A stretch of DNA of 64,000 nt. Source: Verrucomicrobiota bacterium. GTDB lineage: Bacteria > Verrucomicrobiota > Verrucomicrobiia > Verrucomicrobiales > Akkermansiaceae. The position numbers were made by a program, and so were the translations under genes. The notes below the pieces were generated by a model. It saw only the letters and a list, made by a program, of their open reading frames with translations. It had not been told where the DNA came from and searched no databases. The stretch spans positions 1 to 64,000 of the forward strand of contig RDZR01000028.1 in NCBI GenBank assembly GCA_004294095.1, read 5' to 3'. Shown piece after piece: positions 24,033 through 32,891 of this stretch (the first letter of the stretch is position 1; the number at the start of each line of letters is the position of its first letter).

Positions 24033-25007
24033 ATGCCCGCGCCGCTTCCAATTTCGCCGCCACGTCATTTATTGGTGATCAAACCATCATCGTTGGGGGA
24101 TATTGTGCACGCCTTGCAGGTGATTCAACTGTTGCGTTGCGAGTTGCCAGCATGCCGCGTGACGTGGGTGGTGCGGGATCGTTTCGCACCGCTTGTGGAG
24201 GCCGCGCCATTTGTGGATGAGGTCATTTTATTTCATCGCAAAGAAGGCCTCCGTGGGTTGGCGAAGTTGCTTAGGGAATTGCGCCAGCGCGAGTTTGATA
24301 TGATCTGGGACATGCAAGGGCTGCTGCGCAGTGGCCTGATGACGGCCGCCGCCATGGCCAAGCAAAAATGGGGGCGGAGTGATGCTCGCGAGGGGTCGGC
24401 TTGGTTTTACAAGCGGAAAATAGATCTGCCGTCGAGCGCTGGCCCACACCACGCGATCGCCATTTTGTTAGAATTTACCAAAGCCCTCGGAATCGATCGA
24501 GATATTGCTTACCCGCTGCAACTCGCTGATGGGCCGAACATGCCATGGAGCAGTTTTTTTGCAGGCGATCCCAACGAGCAATTTGTGATCTTCACCGATA
24601 GCCGAGGTGCTGGAAAAGAATGGCCTGGATTTGATGCATTGACTCACCTTATCTGGCAAGAAATCCCTAACAGTCGCATCGCTTGGTGTGCCGGATCCAG
24701 CATGCAGCCAAGTGGCTCGATTCCCGACGGGCGTTTTCTCAATCTGACTGGATGCCCACTGTTAGAAATGATTGAATTGGTGCGTCAGCCCTCCATTTTC
24801 ATCGGAAATGATAGCGGCCCGATGCATCTATCTGCGGCAGTTGGCAACAAGGTCTTGGCCATCTTCGGCCCGACTTCGCCGCTGCGCTTCGGTCCCTGGC
24901 CACTCGACTCCCCGCGAACATCATCGGTGCAAGCACCCAATGGCGTGCTTGCCAATCTTTCCGCGCAGCAAGTCCTCAGTTCGCTGCTTACCCTGCGGGA
25001 AAAATAG
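24033..25007 (+). CDS. Glycosyltransferase family 9 (heptosyltransferase-like)
   Basis: 324 residues with the family 9 pattern: N-terminal LLVIKPSSLGDIVHALQVIQLL, central FTDSRGAGKEWPGFDALTHL, and the nucleotide-sugar motif FIGNDSGPMHLSAAVGNKVLAIFGPTSP, which includes the conserved D-S-G-P-M-H-L. Such enzymes add heptose or a related sugar to the lipopolysaccharide core at the inner membrane. It is divergent from DUF4254. The donor sugar cannot be told from the sequence. Confidence 0.9.
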   Translation: MPAPLPISPPRHLLVIKPSSLGDIVHALQVIQLLRCELPACRVTWVVRDRFAPLVEAAPFVDEVILFHRKEGLRGLAKLLRELRQREFDMIWDMQGLLRSGLMTAAAMAKQKWGRSDAREGSAWFYKRKIDLPSSAGPHHAIAILLEFTKALGIDRDIAYPLQLADGPNMPWSSFFAGDPNEQFVIFTDSRGAGKEWPGFDALTHLIWQEIPNSRIAWCAGSSMQPSGSIPDGRFLNLTGCPLLEMIELVRQPSIFIGNDSGPMHLSAAVGNKVLAIFGPTSPLRFGPWPLDSPRTSSVQAPNGVLANLSAQQVLSSLLTLREK

Positions 25008-25094: not shown

Positions 25095-26235
25095 TCAATC
25101 GTCTTCATCTTTGGCACCTTTCACGCGGACTTTGCCGCGCAACTTCGCCTCGATGAAGGCATCCAAATCGCCATCCATTGTGTCTTGGATGTTGCCGGTT
25201 TCCTCACCAGTGCGCAGGTCTAACACTTTTTGATACGGTTGGAAAACGTAGGAGCGGATCTGGTTACCCCATGATACGTCGCCCTTTTCGCCGTAAGCGC
25301 GATCGGCCTCAGCGCGTTGTTTGTCCTCCTCGATGGTGTAGAGCTTGGCTTTGAGAATTTCAAAGGCCAGCTCGCGGTTCGCGCCTTGTGTGCGGGCTGC
25401 AGTGGAGCGAATCAAGATGCCGGTGGGCAAGTGACGAAGGATCACCGCGGTCTCCACTTTGTTGACGTTTTGTCCACCTTTGCCGCCAGAGCGTGTGGTG
25501 GTGATCTCGATGTCTTTTTCCTGAATATCAATATGAATTTCCCGTGAAATTTCAGGCGTGGCATCAATCGAAGCAAACGAAGTGTGCCGCTTGGCGTTGG
25601 AATCAAATGGAGAAATGCGGACCAAACGATGCACGCCGCGTTCGTTTTTCAAAAATCCATACGCGTAATCGCCGGTGATCTTGAGCGTCGCGGTGCGCAG
25701 GCCGGCTTCATCGCCATCTTGCCAATCGAGCATCTCCACGGTGAAGCCCTTGCGCTCCGCCCAACGCACATACATGCGGTGCAACATCTGCGCCCAATCG
25801 CAGGCTTCAGTGCCACCCGCACCAGCGGAAATGACCAAAAAGCAGGGAGAAATATCGCTGGGCTGATCTAACAGCGTGAGCAATTCAAATGTGCGAATGT
25901 CTTTTTCTAACAGACTTGCTTGATCGATCGCTTCACGCGCCAACTCACCATCATCGAACTCTTTAGCCAGCGAAACGCCCTCCACGATATCGCCCAAACG
26001 GCTCTCTAACTTGAGAAATGTCTCAAGCTTTTTTTTCATGCTCGCCGCCTGCGAACTAATTGCTTTCGCCTTATCCGAATCATTCCAAAACTCAGGTGCA
26101 CCCATCGCTTCTTCGAGCGTTTGGATGCGATTTTCTAGTTGTGGGACGTCAAAGATACCTCCTGAGTTTCGAAAGACGGCTCTTTAAGCCATCGACATCG
26201 AGCGCCAGGAGGTCAGCGGTAGGAAGTGCAGACAT
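25095..26235 (-). CDS. prfB: Peptide chain release factor 2 with programmed +1 frameshift
   Basis: Recognises UGA and UAA stops and triggers peptide release on the ribosome. The first frame starts at an ATG (26233-26235), encodes 27 residues beginning [16 protein letters not shown], and ends at an in-frame TGA (26149-26151). Just before it stands AGGAGG TAT CTT TGA C, the conserved RF2 frameshift cassette (SD-like AGGAGG at 26158-26163). A +1 shift at CTT joins [14 protein letters not shown] and the main frame, giving about 378 residues. SPF (codon recognition) and GGQ (in [12 protein letters not shown]) are intact. Expression is autoregulated by RF2 level through this stop. Confidence 0.95.
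26149..26163 (-). promoter_or_regulatory. prfB programmed-frameshift cassette
   Basis: Reading on the minus strand: AGGAGG TAT CTT TGA. This is the classic RF2 arrangement of a Shine-Dalgarno-like hexamer three bases upstream of the CUU-U slip site and a UGA stop. The usual first hexamer is AGGGGG; here it is AGGAGG, a perfect anti-SD match. Confidence 0.95.
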
Positions 26236-26278: not shown

Positions 26279-26851
26279 TCAACACCGCAGGCGAAATGTT
26301 AGATTGATCCGCGGGCCAAGGACTTTTTTGGACTTGGGCAAGGCGTGTTTCCAGCAACGTTGCGTCGCACCTTTCATCACCAACAAGCTGCCGGATTCGA
26401 GGATCGTGGAAATGGATTCTTTGGAAATGCGGTGCTTGAAGGAAAATTTTCGCGCCGCTCCAAAGCTGAGTGAGGCGATGGCGGAATCGCGCACAATCGC
26501 CGGCTCATCATCGGCATGCCAGCCCATTCCTTCACTGCCATCGTGGTAAAAATTCAAGAGGCAGGAGTTAAAAACCTCGCCGCTGATCGCTTCGCATCGG
26601 TGCTTCAATGCGCAGAGCAGCGGAGTCCACGGCAGCGGCAATTTTTCTGATCCGGAGTAGAGATACGATTGCTCGCGATCCGCCACCCATGCCATTTTTC
26701 GGCTCAGCGTGATGCGCTTGCCAAACATCACCACCTCCTCATGAGCCCACGGGATTTCTTGCTCAAGTTTCGTTTGATATTCTAACTGCTCGGCAGCAGA
26801 AAAAATAACCCCGTAATTGATTGCTTCTCCATCACAAAGCAAAAGATTCAT
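26279..26851 (-). CDS. alkB: AlkB-like Fe(II)/2-oxoglutarate dioxygenase (DNA alkylation repair)
   Basis: About 190 residues from the ATG at 26851 (MNLLLCDGEAINYG); longer starts at 26866 or 26950 exist but add no family sequence. The nucleotide-recognition and iron motifs are present: NFYHDGSEGMGWHADDE supplies the H-x-D pair, a later His lies in WKHALP, and RINLTFR binds 2-oxoglutarate. It oxidatively removes alkyl groups from DNA or RNA bases. It lies 43 bp upstream of prfB on the same strand and may share a transcript. ALKBH2/3-type spacing suggests the short, single-domain class. Confidence 0.88.
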   Translation of the reverse strand: MNLLLCDGEAINYGVIFSAAEQLEYQTKLEQEIPWAHEEVVMFGKRITLSRKMAWVADREQSYLYSGSEKLPLPWTPLLCALKHRCEAISGEVFNSCLLNFYHDGSEGMGWHADDEPAIVRDSAIASLSFGAARKFSFKHRISKESISTILESGSLLVMKGATQRCWKHALPKSKKVLGPRINLTFRLRC

Positions 26852-26945
26852 GGCGAACGATGGCATAGCTCGTAATTTTCTCAGGAAAAAAATTTTGCAG
26901 ATATTTAAAAGTTGGCACAACGGGTGCTCTATGTAAGATGTCGAC

Positions 26946-27022
26946 ACCAACAGGCAGTCCGACTGAGATGCTTCAGGGTTAATGGGTTTTCCTCGAAGAT
27001 GATCAGTCGGGCTGCTTTTTTT
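26946..27022 (+). ncRNA. Candidate small structured RNA with intrinsic terminator, upstream of mutL
   Basis: Arms GCAGTCCGACTGA (26954-26966) and TCAGTCGGGCTGC (27003-27015) form a 13-bp stem with one G-U pair, followed at once by seven T residues. The 36-nt interior folds again: CTTCAGG pairs with CCTCGAAG with one bulged C. A weak sigma-70-like promoter (TTGGCA at 26912, TAAGAT at 26934, spacing 16) would start a transcript near 26946. The genes to the left are on the opposite strand, so this is not the terminator of a known gene. It could be an independent sRNA or a mutL leader/attenuator. Confidence 0.55.
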
Positions 27023-27081: not shown

Positions 27082-28815
27082 ATGCAGAAAATCCGCGTTC
27101 TTCCCGATATTTTAGCCAGCCAAGTTGCCGCAGGTGAAGTCGTCGAGAGGCCTGCTTCCGTCATCAAAGAATTGGTGGAAAATAGCTTGGATGCCGGTGC
27201 TCAGGAAATCCGCGTGGATGTGGACCGTGGCGGCGTGGCTCTAATGCGTGTGATCGACGATGGTTGCGGAATGTCACGAGAAGACGCCCTGCTTTCGTTA
27301 GAGCGGCATGCGACGAGTAAGTTGCGCAGCGTGGGTGATTTGGCGGCCATTTCCACATTAGGCTTTCGTGGCGAAGCGGTGCCGAGCATTGCCAGCGTCT
27401 CGCGCTTCCGCATGATCACACGTGAACGCGATGCCATCTCCGGCACGGAAATTGTCATTGAAGGCGGCACGATGCGCTCAGTGCGCGAGGCCGGATGCGC
27501 GCCCGGCACCACCATCGAGGTCAAATCACTTTTCTATAACATGCCCGCTCGGTTGAAATTTCTCCGTGCCGAATCGACTGAGGCCGCGCACATCGAGCAT
27601 CAAATGCGCTTGCATGCACTCGCCGCACCCAATGTGAGATTTCGCCTGCGCCGCGACGACCGTGAGGTTTTTGATCTGCCAAGCTGTGCCCACGCGCTTG
27701 ATCGTTTACGGCAATTGTTAGGCACGGAGCTCGCACGCGATTTAGTCGAAATTCCGCTCACGCAAATCGATCGAATCGCGGTGTTTGGATATTTGCTGCC
27801 ACCCACGCACGCCCGCAAAGGGCGCCGCCACCAATGCGTATTTCTCAATGGCCGCCCTGTCGAAGATGCAGGCATCGCACGTTCGCTGGCCGATGGATTT
27901 CGCGGTGCACTGGCCGATGGTTTTTACCCTGCTGCGTGGGTTTGGCTGAAAGTCCCGCCAACGCATGTCGATGTCAATGTGCACCCTGCCAAACGTGAAG
28001 TGCGCTTCCACCGGCCGCATGAAATTCGCGAGGTGATGTTAGAAGCAGTGGCGCGTGGACTCAGGCCAGAGCAACCTCAGCCAAGCCCCACACCGCAAAA
28101 AGCAAGTAATCTAACAGACCATTCAGTGCCGATGTGGTCGGTGCCTGCACAGCGATTGGTTGCACCTCCACGAGACATCTCTTTGCCAACACTTGAGCAA
28201 GCTGAGAAACCATGTGCGGCTCTGCAACCGCAAGTCACACCTAGCCCGCAATTCCGGTTCGTCGGAATGCTTCACCAACGCTTTGCTCTGTTAGAAGGAG
28301 CTGATGAACTGGTCATCTTCGATCCCAAGGCAGCTCACGAGCGCATCATTTACGAAGAAATGGTGGCCGCCAGCGCAGCCCACTCGAGCAGCCAGCGACT
28401 GCTCGTTCCCATCCTGTTAGAACTAGAGCCAAGGGACTACGAACTCATTTTGCGGCATCGCTTGAGCTTGCAAGAATGCGGTATGGAAATCGATGCATTC
28501 GGCGGAAATACCCTTCAAATCAATGCCCTACCAACCGTGCTCGAACTGGAAAATCCACGGGAATTCGTCGCCGCGTTGCTCGATGAACTCCTCCACAGCT
28601 CGTCTGCCAACGCGCGCTTCGGAATCGATCGTTTTGCCAAAATATATGCCAAACGAGTCGCCTCACTGATTCATGTGCGCGAAGTAGAAATTGAACCTCT
28701 TCTGCTCGCTCTTTTTTCATGCGAGCTACCCTACTGCGCGGCGGATGGACGGCCGACTCTCACCGCAATGAGCATGGCCGAGATTCAGCGGCGCTTCGGG
28801 CTGAATAAAAATTAA
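27082..28815 (+). CDS. mutL: DNA mismatch repair protein MutL
   Basis: GHKL ATPase that links MutS mismatch recognition to strand incision. In 577 residues: N-terminal ATPase motifs IAAGEVVERPASVIKELVEN, DDGCGM and GFRGEAVPSIASVS, a transducer domain with NGRPVEDAGI and THVDVNVHPAKREVRF, a low-complexity linker (about 330-390), and a C-terminal dimerisation domain. The C-terminus has no clear DQHAxxExxxxE endonuclease motif: the aligned part reads FDPKAAHERIIYEEM, which keeps AAHERI and the E pattern but with FDPKAAH for DQHAAH. Whether it has nicking activity is uncertain. Confidence 0.96.
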   Translation: MQKIRVLPDILASQVAAGEVVERPASVIKELVENSLDAGAQEIRVDVDRGGVALMRVIDDGCGMSREDALLSLERHATSKLRSVGDLAAISTLGFRGEAVPSIASVSRFRMITRERDAISGTEIVIEGGTMRSVREAGCAPGTTIEVKSLFYNMPARLKFLRAESTEAAHIEHQMRLHALAAPNVRFRLRRDDREVFDLPSCAHALDRLRQLLGTELARDLVEIPLTQIDRIAVFGYLLPPTHARKGRRHQCVFLNGRPVEDAGIARSLADGFRGALADGFYPAAWVWLKVPPTHVDVNVHPAKREVRFHRPHEIREVMLEAVARGLRPEQPQPSPTPQKASNLTDHSVPMWSVPAQRLVAPPRDISLPTLEQAEKPCAALQPQVTPSPQFRFVGMLHQRFALLEGADELVIFDPKAAHERIIYEEMVAASAAHSSSQRLLVPILLELEPRDYELILRHRLSLQECGMEIDAFGGNTLQINALPTVLELENPREFVAALLDELLHSSSANARFGIDRFAKIYAKRVASLIHVREVEIEPLLLALFSCELPYCAADGRPTLTAMSMAEIQRRFGLNKN

Positions 28816-29660: not shown

Positions 29661-32600
29661 TCAGGGTGAGATTTCTAACTGTTTTCTCAACGATTCGAGT
29701 GCTGCTTGAGATTCACGCAAACTTTCGACGTTCATCCATGGCTTGCTGCGATTGATTTCATCCTGCATGCGCTGAAGTATAAAGGCAGCTTGCTCGGTCC
29801 GCGCGCGCAGCGGCTTATCCTTCACATCAAACCAAACCGGTGCCGTGTGCGCAAACCTCGCGCGGCCATCTTCGCGCGGCTCCCACACACGCAGCGCAAA
29901 CCAACTCGTGCCATCCAGTGTGAGAGTGCGTTCGATTGACGCGCGATCTTGATTGACTGGAATGATTTCTTTCACCGATCCATTCACAATCAGCTCGACG
30001 GATCCGATCGCTTGCTCGCCTGCAACTTGAGCTGTTAGATGGACCCCATTTTCAGTGAGTGAAAAATCCGCCATGCACATCGGACCAGTCGTCACAAAGC
30101 TATTCCCGCGGTGTAATCCATCAAGCCAGTGCGCGTAAGAAAATCCTTGCGGGCAATGCACATACACGCGGCTAAAACCTAACGGAACTGGATGCACGCC
30201 GCTCGCGGTGCCCGCAGTTGGACGCAGGCGTTTCCCACAATTCAACAATGCCCAATACGTCTGATGGGTGTATTCAATCCAGTCACGCTCATTGCCCCCA
30301 TGCGTCGCGTGCGGCAACATCCATGCGGGTGCTGGCGTGAACCATGGAGTGATGGCAAATGGCACTTGCCAGACATGATTGTTAGAAAGTTCATACAACG
30401 TCTCAGGTGCCAGCTCCGGCAACAGCGCCATCCATGGCCAGTCCGGTTTATCCATATCAAAAAACGCACCCTGCTTACGAGCTGCGGCCAGCATCGGCAG
30501 CAGTGGTGGCACCTTTTGTGGCAGCGGCATGCGATGGCCGAGCGCAAAAATAGCACCCGTGGTGTGTTCGTGGCCACCGAGTGAGAAAATTTCCCATTCC
30601 GTATTGCATGGCCAGATCACATGGGTTTCATCCACTTTGATCAGCTCAGCAGGTTGCTCAGGCGTCGCACTTGGATCAAATTTTCTCGGGCTTTGATCAT
30701 CGCGAATCGTCCAATAGGTGAGCGGAAATGCGACATTCAAATCTTCTGCAAGCATTAGATTGGGCAAATCTAACAATGTGCGATGCACGTGCGTCTCGCC
30801 GCTATACCAACCATCTTCTTGCATATCGATCCAACGCTCCATCGGAAAATTCATCTCAAGCGGTTGATCACTCACCACAATTTCCCGCAACAACGGCCGC
30901 CATTCTTTGCCGTGCTCAATGACCAACGTGTAGCGGCCTGCCGGAAGATGGGCGATCCATGGATGCGCAGTCAGCGTGGTGTGATTTTCTTCACTCAACG
31001 GATTTCTGAAATTGCGTTTTTCATAGCGCACCGCACTGCCACCATCACTTTGCGGGAAGAACCATGATCCTGCTAGATTTCTCAAAGTGATGCGCGAAGG
31101 CAATGGCCGGCCGCTGGCCGCATCGATCACATGGCCTCTAACAGTTATGAGTGGAACGGCTTCATCCATTTTTTTAATCCACGTATTTTCCGCAGCTTCA
31201 AACGATGCGATTGCAGATCGTCGCTTCTCAGGCTCCGTGATCGCGCGAGTTACTTGCTCTTGGCGTTGCTGGGCAAGTTCCCGAAAAACTTGAACATCGG
31301 CACGCTGCGGCTTCAGTGCAGTGCCGCCAATCTCAACATACCATGGCGCGATGAGAGCCACTTTGTGGTCTGTTAGAAAACGCAGGGCAAACCAGCCACT
31401 TTCCTGCATGGTCATCAGGTGTGGCAGCGCGATGGTCTCCACTCGCCCGTTGCGGATCAACTCGATGCGAGTCAGCGGATCTGCGGAGTCCAGTTTGCCT
31501 GCAAGGTGAATTTGCAGCGGCCCGGTCGTCACCATCGTGCGCCCAGCTTTGAGCGCATCCCACCATCCTTGCCATGTCAATGATTGGCCGACGTGGACAT
31601 AAACTCGCCCGTGTTGGCCTGGGCGAGAGCTGACGATTCCAGCGAGTGGAATTCTCAAGCCAGTATTGAGCGCATGAAAATAGCTAGCGTGTGTTGTTAG
31701 ATCATCACCAACTCCAAGCGAATCGAGTTTTCCGCTGGCGAGCCAAACTGGCAAATCACTTGGTGAACTGATGTGCGCATGAATCCACGCCTCACGCCGC
31801 GCGGCGAGATCAACCACAAATTGAGAGATTGGCCACTGAGCTGTTAGATCGGGGAAATCCGTAATGCCGAGTGGCTCGCGCAGACCATGATAGGAAACAA
31901 CTCCGCCGCTTCGTTGATCGCAGCCAGCAACAAGATGAAACCATCGCAGATCCGGAGTTTTTTGAATGCGGGGAGCAGGAGGTTTTTCATTTTTCCAATG
32001 GTTCATTTGATTGGACCATGTGATTGCTTCGCCGATCCATAAATCTGATGCGCGCATCTGAACGGGAATTTCACTGAGATCGAAATCCATACCGAGATCT
32101 CCCGCCCACCATCCTTCTTTTGCGAGATCCGTGAGACGTTCGAGCGTGATCGTTAATTCCGTGCCCTTCGGCTCAACCAGCAATTCGCCCTGCTGCGCGA
32201 TCCACTCCGGCCCCTTATCTATCTGATAGATGTAGCGTTCGCATGGTATGGATAAATCAGTTTCTCCATCTAACAAAAAATAGCCATCGTGAGCTGAGTT
32301 GATTGATTCACCTCGAGCATTTTTCAAATAAACGCGCGCGGCCAGTGGCACTCCATGGACATCGCGCAATGCTAAATGCAACGAGCTATGAATTGTCTCT
32401 AATTCGGACGCTTGATTGTGCCCAATAGGATTATTTTTGATCTGAAAATTCAACAGCACATCGCTCCGAAATCCCAGATCCTGTGTGCCTTGGCCGGCAT
32501 TGACGTGGATGAGTGCGGATCGAATCCCAATGTGATTCGTGCGCAGTTTGAGCATGCGTTTTTCTAACCGTTCACCGCTCAAGCGGCCTTCGGGTTCTAA

Positions 32601-32891
32601 TTTCCATTCAAGCCACCCATCGCGTTTGGCATCATCTTCAGCAGCGCCGTGATCGATGAAATGAGGACTCTCTAACTGAAGTGCGGATGTGATTCCAGCC
32701 GAGTTGAGAATTTCAATCTCATAATCTCGCCACTCATTTTGGATTAAATCGAGAGGTTCTGTCCCCGGGTCCACCTTCACTCGTGCTTCCGGACTGATCG
32801 ATACTGACATGATCACCGGCGGCTCTGCCGATGCCAAAGACAGCATCATGCCAAGCCCAAGCAAGCACGCCAGCAACTTACGAATTTCCAT
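29661..32891 (-). CDS. Large exported CehA/McbA-like protein with two tandem metallohydrolase modules
   Basis: 1076 residues with a signal peptide (first 22). Two parallel halves each have a carboxypeptidase-regulatory-like beta segment, a CehA/McbA (PHP-type) core, and a closing block (RVYVHVGQ...MVTTGP and RVYVHCPQ...FVTTGP). The second core, near residue 697, has the metal-binding GETHVHRT (H-x-H). The aligned position in the first core, near residue 263, reads GDLGMDFD, so its H-x-H is missing. The first module is therefore probably non-catalytic and the second probably active. Substrate unknown; relatives hydrolyse carbamate or phosphoester-type bonds. Confidence 0.75.
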   Translation of the reverse strand: MEIRKLLACLLGLGMMLSLASAEPPVIMSVSISPEARVKVDPGTEPLDLIQNEWRDYEIEILNSAGITSALQLESPHFIDHGAAEDDAKRDGWLEWKLEPEGRLSGERLEKRMLKLRTNHIGIRSALIHVNAGQGTQDLGFRSDVLLNFQIKNNPIGHNQASELETIHSSLHLALRDVHGVPLAARVYLKNARGESINSAHDGYFLLDGETDLSIPCERYIYQIDKGPEWIAQQGELLVEPKGTELTITLERLTDLAKEGWWAGDLGMDFDLSEIPVQMRASDLWIGEAITWSNQMNHWKNEKPPAPRIQKTPDLRWFHLVAGCDQRSGGVVSYHGLREPLGITDFPDLTAQWPISQFVVDLAARREAWIHAHISSPSDLPVWLASGKLDSLGVGDDLTTHASYFHALNTGLRIPLAGIVSSRPGQHGRVYVHVGQSLTWQGWWDALKAGRTMVTTGPLQIHLAGKLDSADPLTRIELIRNGRVETIALPHLMTMQESGWFALRFLTDHKVALIAPWYVEIGGTALKPQRADVQVFRELAQQRQEQVTRAITEPEKRRSAIASFEAAENTWIKKMDEAVPLITVRGHVIDAASGRPLPSRITLRNLAGSWFFPQSDGGSAVRYEKRNFRNPLSEENHTTLTAHPWIAHLPAGRYTLVIEHGKEWRPLLREIVVSDQPLEMNFPMERWIDMQEDGWYSGETHVHRTLLDLPNLMLAEDLNVAFPLTYWTIRDDQSPRKFDPSATPEQPAELIKVDETHVIWPCNTEWEIFSLGGHEHTTGAIFALGHRMPLPQKVPPLLPMLAAARKQGAFFDMDKPDWPWMALLPELAPETLYELSNNHVWQVPFAITPWFTPAPAWMLPHATHGGNERDWIEYTHQTYWALLNCGKRLRPTAGTASGVHPVPLGFSRVYVHCPQGFSYAHWLDGLHRGNSFVTTGPMCMADFSLTENGVHLTAQVAGEQAIGSVELIVNGSVKEIIPVNQDRASIERTLTLDGTSWFALRVWEPREDGRARFAHTAPVWFDVKDKPLRARTEQAAFILQRMQDEINRSKPWMNVESLRESQAALESLRKQLEISP

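Follow-up and report, generated by a model that had tools for sequence, protein, structure and literature searches.

The question raised by this locus is what a long hairpin ending in a run of T residues is doing on the plus strand ahead of mutL, in a window (the whole stretch of DNA analysed, 64,000 nucleotides) from a bacterium of the Akkermansiaceae. The first-pass annotation considered it to be either an independent sRNA or a leader that attenuates mutL. Judged from sequence comparison, it is likely that the locus is a standalone gene for an sRNA some 83 nt long, which has one further copy in its genome and belongs to a multi-copy family of the order.

Folding of the window copy gave a minimum free energy of -35.1 kcal/mol (z = -5.4), which none of 200 shuffled sequences equalled, and the 13-bp stem, the inner bulged stem and the seven T residues described previously were thereby borne out. 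The outer stem was found to extend to 15 bp, made up of a 13-pair core and two basal pairs that involve the first U residues of the tail, and the apical loop comprises 11–12 bases (Table 1). The 5' end of the RNA probably lies near 26939/26940, several nucleotides upstream of the start given in the first-pass annotation; the size of 77 nt proposed there was roughly right, and a length nearer 83 nt is predicted when counted from 26939/26940. The 8-base palindrome found there in the window copy is not predicted to fold into a hairpin. Most homologues have a short 5' hairpin (TGTCGCGACA, TTGTCGCAAGACAA and others), the sequence of which differs between families.

Table 1. Features of the window copy and of its neighbouring genes (positions in the window)
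Feature	Positions	Strand	Basis or remark
Neighbour, 2OG-Fe(II) oxygenase of the AlkB type (divergent)	26279..26851	-	PF13532, 126.5 bits
Sigma-54-type element TTGGCACAACGGGTGCT	26912..26928	+	GG at 26914-26915 and GC at 26926-26927 with N10 between; 10/11 matches to TGGCACG-N5-TGCT
Predicted 5' end, palindrome TGTCGACA	26939..26946	+	12 nt downstream of the -12 GC
Outer stem, 5' arm	26952..26966	+	Fold and covariation
4x4 internal loop, 5' side (GATG)	26967..26970	+	Fold; kept in most genus copies
Bulged inner stem, 5' arm	26971..26978	+	Letters vary, pairing retained
Near-invariant apical motif GGTTAATGGGTTTTCC	26977..26992	+	GTT-N-GGG-N-TTT conservation among copies
Inner stem, 3' arm, one bulged base	26990..26998	+	Fold
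4x4 internal loop, 3' side (ATGA)	26999..27002	+	Fold
Outer stem, 3' arm	27003..27017	+	Fold and covariation
Seven T residues, intrinsic terminator tail	27016..27022	+	Sequence
Neighbour, mutL	27082..28815	+	PF01119 and PF08676

A search of the whole window with the 4227 models of Rfam release 15 at gathering thresholds matched only a tRNA, and at relaxed thresholds the best sub-threshold matches at the locus reached 11–13 bits and pointed to no family, which upholds the earlier statement that the structure matches no known riboswitch. Neither this RNA family nor any regulatory sRNA of Luteolibacter and related bacteria was found described in the open-licence literature searched. On the basis of Rfam and of that literature, the family is apparently undescribed.

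A DNA search identified a second copy in the window genome (contig C61, 24652-24727; 83% identity), which brings the total there to two; its flanking genes resemble, by sequence inspection rather than by profile, those for an S1-type RNA-binding protein and a ribosome-associated GTPase. Dozens more copies, many of them in tandem, were detected in the genus (the Luteolibacter group of the Akkermansiaceae). When a sequence pattern made from the copies was run against GTDB contigs, it matched 64 stretches, all in records named Verrucomicrobia(ceae), Akkermansiaceae, Luteolibacter, Akkermansia or Prosthecobacter. Among them is the isolate Luteolibacter pohnpeiensis, which has several copies. The covariance search in related genomes that had been proposed as a check recovered homologues in 72 of 73 genus genomes (48/48 of those of good quality) and across the order, with E-values that are rough owing to a shortened calibration. 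The covariance model gave 1 to about 13 matches per genus genome. The highest numbers, 11–13 matches each, were seen in genomes G162 and G073, the latter with tandem runs on contigs C125 and C146. Order-wide, 56 of 240 genomes matched, with best scores of up to 85 bits in other Akkermansiaceae genera and up to 53 bits, sparsely, in other families, and a sample of 388 genomes of the phylum contained just two weak matches outside the family. Essentially no matches were obtained in one genus of the order (g18), which appears to be Akkermansia, suggesting that the RNA is missing from almost all Akkermansia.

Compensatory changes in the stems, which the first-pass annotation had named as the kind of observation that would support the structure, were found. 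In 52 genus copies, 97.9% of the cells pair, and double changes were present at 12 of 19 pairs, amounting to 27 double-change cells compared with 4.6 in shuffled alignments and at most 13 in slid versions. A model-fitted alignment of 45 matches from outside the genus, which also includes a few genus copies and a few opposite-strand matches, shows covariation at 18 of 19 pairs (138 cells versus 35); the genus figure is the safer of the two because the outside-genus alignment leans towards the model. Whereas the letters of the stem change, those of the apical loop, GGUUAAUGGGUUUU(U)CC, hardly vary across the copies. Of 89 genus copies, 85 have GTT-N-GGG-N-TTT, as do 65 of 70 others, the latter including the copies of G162 and G260, both members of the genus, and GUU-N-GGG-N-UUU persists across families while the spacing of the loop and the length of its G run vary. 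A small ORF in the loop (ATG GGT TTT) was considered and rejected, since many copies have lost its ATG (TTATTGGG, TTTTTGGG).

With respect to transcription, the first-pass annotation had placed a plausible promoter 8 to 34 bp upstream of the hairpin. The sequence TTGGCA-N16-TAAGAT is indeed present at 26912-26939, but such sites are not enriched over chance (5 found versus 3.8 expected). GG-N10-GC is the hallmark of sigma-54 promoters, and TTGGCA fits better as the -24 part of a putative element of this type, TTGGCAC-N6-TGCT, which recurs at a fixed place elsewhere and is located in the window as in dozens of other copies. Of 159 copies, 49 agree with TGGCACG-N5-TGCT at 9 or more of its 11 positions, 41 at 10 or more and 28 at all of them, compared with about 1 (at least 9 matches) and 0.1 (at least 10) per 159 copies in shuffled sequences, and these elements mostly lie at one distance from the 5' end. 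Other copies are preceded by sigma-70-like TTGAC/TTGCC boxes with a TAAT-like -10, as recognised by eye and left unscored. No clear operator or enhancer was found upstream of the sigma-54-type promoters, where the top words were AT-rich (AATTTCC) together with a few resembling CGATGAG. At three loci (L043, L044 and L045), two copies lie head to tail behind one sigma-54-type promoter, and the first of them lacks a proper T run and is degenerate in its stem; with a single promoter and a degenerate first copy, both may therefore form one transcript.

RpoN is encoded in 54 of 61 genus genomes, and neither RpoN domain was found in the window genome, the assembly of which is 97% complete. This genome encodes three full sigma-54 activators, one with GAFTGA and two with GSFTGA, the latter variant also occurring in sigma-54 activators of RpoN-bearing relatives. 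Given the presence of these activators, rpoN may either fall within the few percent that the assembly lacks or have been lost recently. An examination of rpoN synteny, aimed at deciding between a gap and a loss, showed the tested neighbours to be conserved in only two of eight loci.

The surroundings of the copies bear on whether the hairpin serves an adjacent gene. As described previously, the nearest plus-strand gene on the left, encoding a glycosyltransferase, ends far away, at 25007, and the genes between it and the hairpin, prfB and the alkB-like gene, are both on the minus strand. A riboswitch or attenuator acting in cis on mutL might be suspected, as the hairpin lies about 60 nt ahead of this gene on the same strand. 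Among the loci fetched, however, mutL and alkB adjoin the window copy alone, and the genes downstream of other copies are unrelated to mutL and often on the opposite strand. The association is therefore not a conserved one, and a mutL leader, as the first-pass annotation had suggested, is unsupported and extremely unlikely. By sequence inspection only, the neighbours of other copies include an XylR-resembling regulator, a protein similar to fumarylacetoacetate hydrolase and others that look like PhoH, MetG, RsfS, pyruvate carboxylase and a POT transporter. Conservation within a genus was seen for some positions, for example that beside the pyruvate-carboxylase-like gene in g19.

That the hairpin could be the ordinary terminator, or a 3'-UTR-derived RNA, of whatever gene lies upstream draws on the finding that two thirds of the genus copies share their strand with the upstream gene (58 versus 28 opposite; for the downstream gene, 51 opposite versus 35 same), counts which include tandem and orthologous copies repeatedly and are uncorrected for duplicates. 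Such a bias would fit an origin of some copies behind genes, and an ordinary terminator would produce it likewise. Nevertheless, the gene upstream of the window copy is divergent, and promoter elements and 5' hairpins recur right upstream of copies, which makes a terminator or 3'-UTR origin very unlikely. A dispersed repeat or mobile terminator element (of the REP, MITE or uptake-sequence type) with no RNA function would account for the many unrelated intergenic sites occupied, often in tandem, and for the terminator-like end. It would not readily account for the low number of copies per genome and their persistence across the order, nor for the compensatory changes, the invariant loop and a promoter at a fixed distance. 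The genus-type pattern was unmatched in viral contigs and no similar DNA was found in plasmids, and a mobile or phage-borne element was accordingly rejected; an inert repeat is improbable. The homologues, the covariation, the scattered contexts and the possession of its own promoter and terminator strongly support an independent sRNA, the other alternative of the first-pass annotation.

An sRNA of this kind would be transcribed from its own promoter, would be stopped by its own hairpin and would act in trans, with the loop as its active part and no regulation of mutL in cis. The loop UUAAUGGGUUUU, held out by the stem, would be the active surface and may form short duplexes with several mRNAs or bind a protein such as an RRM protein. 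Having two promoter types would allow a single pool of the RNA to be fed by different signals. In the 61 genomes, the full complement of the loop, AAAACCCATTAA, occurs mainly in the RNA genes themselves, and no long conserved target was found; therefore, pairing must be short, or else the loop binds a protein. Hfq was absent from all 61 genus genomes (controls were positive), and RRM_1 proteins were present in all 30 order genomes tested, with two in the window genome. A decoy RNA, the loop of which titrates a regulatory protein in the manner of CsrB/RsmY or through an RRM protein instead of pairing with mRNAs, is a possible but somewhat doubtful mode of action. Conservation of GUU-N-GGG-N-UUU over families in spite of varying spacing and G-run length, the lack of a long complementary target and the occurrence of RRM_1 proteins throughout the order genomes tested in a group whose genus has no Hfq all point in this direction. 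Against it stand the lack of a known protein partner and the presence of one loop per RNA, as CsrB-type decoys usually carry many sites. The likeness to CsrB/RsmY is that protein titration could be achieved by a conserved, stem-borne loop; the loop of the present RNA is GUU-N-GGG-N-UUU and not of the GGA kind.

Several known systems share features with this family. The Qrr sRNAs of Vibrio are several sigma-54-driven copies of one sRNA and depend on Hfq. The present family resembles them in having multiple copies, some with sigma-54-type promoters, but the genus has no Hfq and the RNA matched no Rfam family. GlmY and GlmZ of Enterobacteria are homologous sRNAs with sigma-54 and sigma-70 promoters, and belong to the RapZ system. 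The two promoter types recall those found here, but GlmY and GlmZ are longer and fold differently, and again no Rfam match was obtained. The closest functional analogue found is FopS/RbpB of Bacteroides, likened here by its published description (PMC11697453). In Bacteroides thetaiotaomicron, FopS sRNAs are about 65–70 nt long, mostly intergenic and present as 12–15 paralogues per genome, the hosts have RRM-1 proteins and no classical RNA chaperones, and the sRNAs act via a 5' seed (R1') and are transcribed from canonical sigma-ABfr promoters (PMC11697453). Both families are short, multicopy and mostly intergenic, in hosts that have RRM-1 proteins but no classical RNA chaperones; the conserved part of the present RNA, however, is not a 5' seed but the apical loop of a 3' hairpin, and some of its promoters are of the sigma-54 type.

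Tentatively, these RNAs might constitute an Hfq-free system spanning an order of Verrucomicrobiota, in which paralogous sRNAs under sigma-54 and sigma-70 promoters share one invariant loop that would be read by an RRM protein or by mRNAs, thereby coupling post-transcriptional control to nutrient signals. An RNA that is nearly universal, multi-copy and invariant in its loop offers a direct handle on post-transcriptional control in a genus that lacks Hfq, and can be tested in cultured strains such as L. pohnpeiensis, while the two promoter types provide a natural case of paralogous sRNAs under different sigma factors.

Other features of the window were also observed. Upstream of prfB, at 26148-26163 on the minus strand, the sequence AGGAGG-TAT-CTTTGAC resembles the classical programmed +1 frameshift site of release factor 2, and the listed prfB ORF (25095-26105) begins past this site. 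A 1076-aa ORF at 29661-32891 on the minus strand has no Pfam match at E 0.001 and is adjacent to an AraC-type regulator. In another genome (G004, locus L114, 3107-3472), an alkB homologue with 63% identity lies near rpoN; the homologue in the window is the one beside the RNA.
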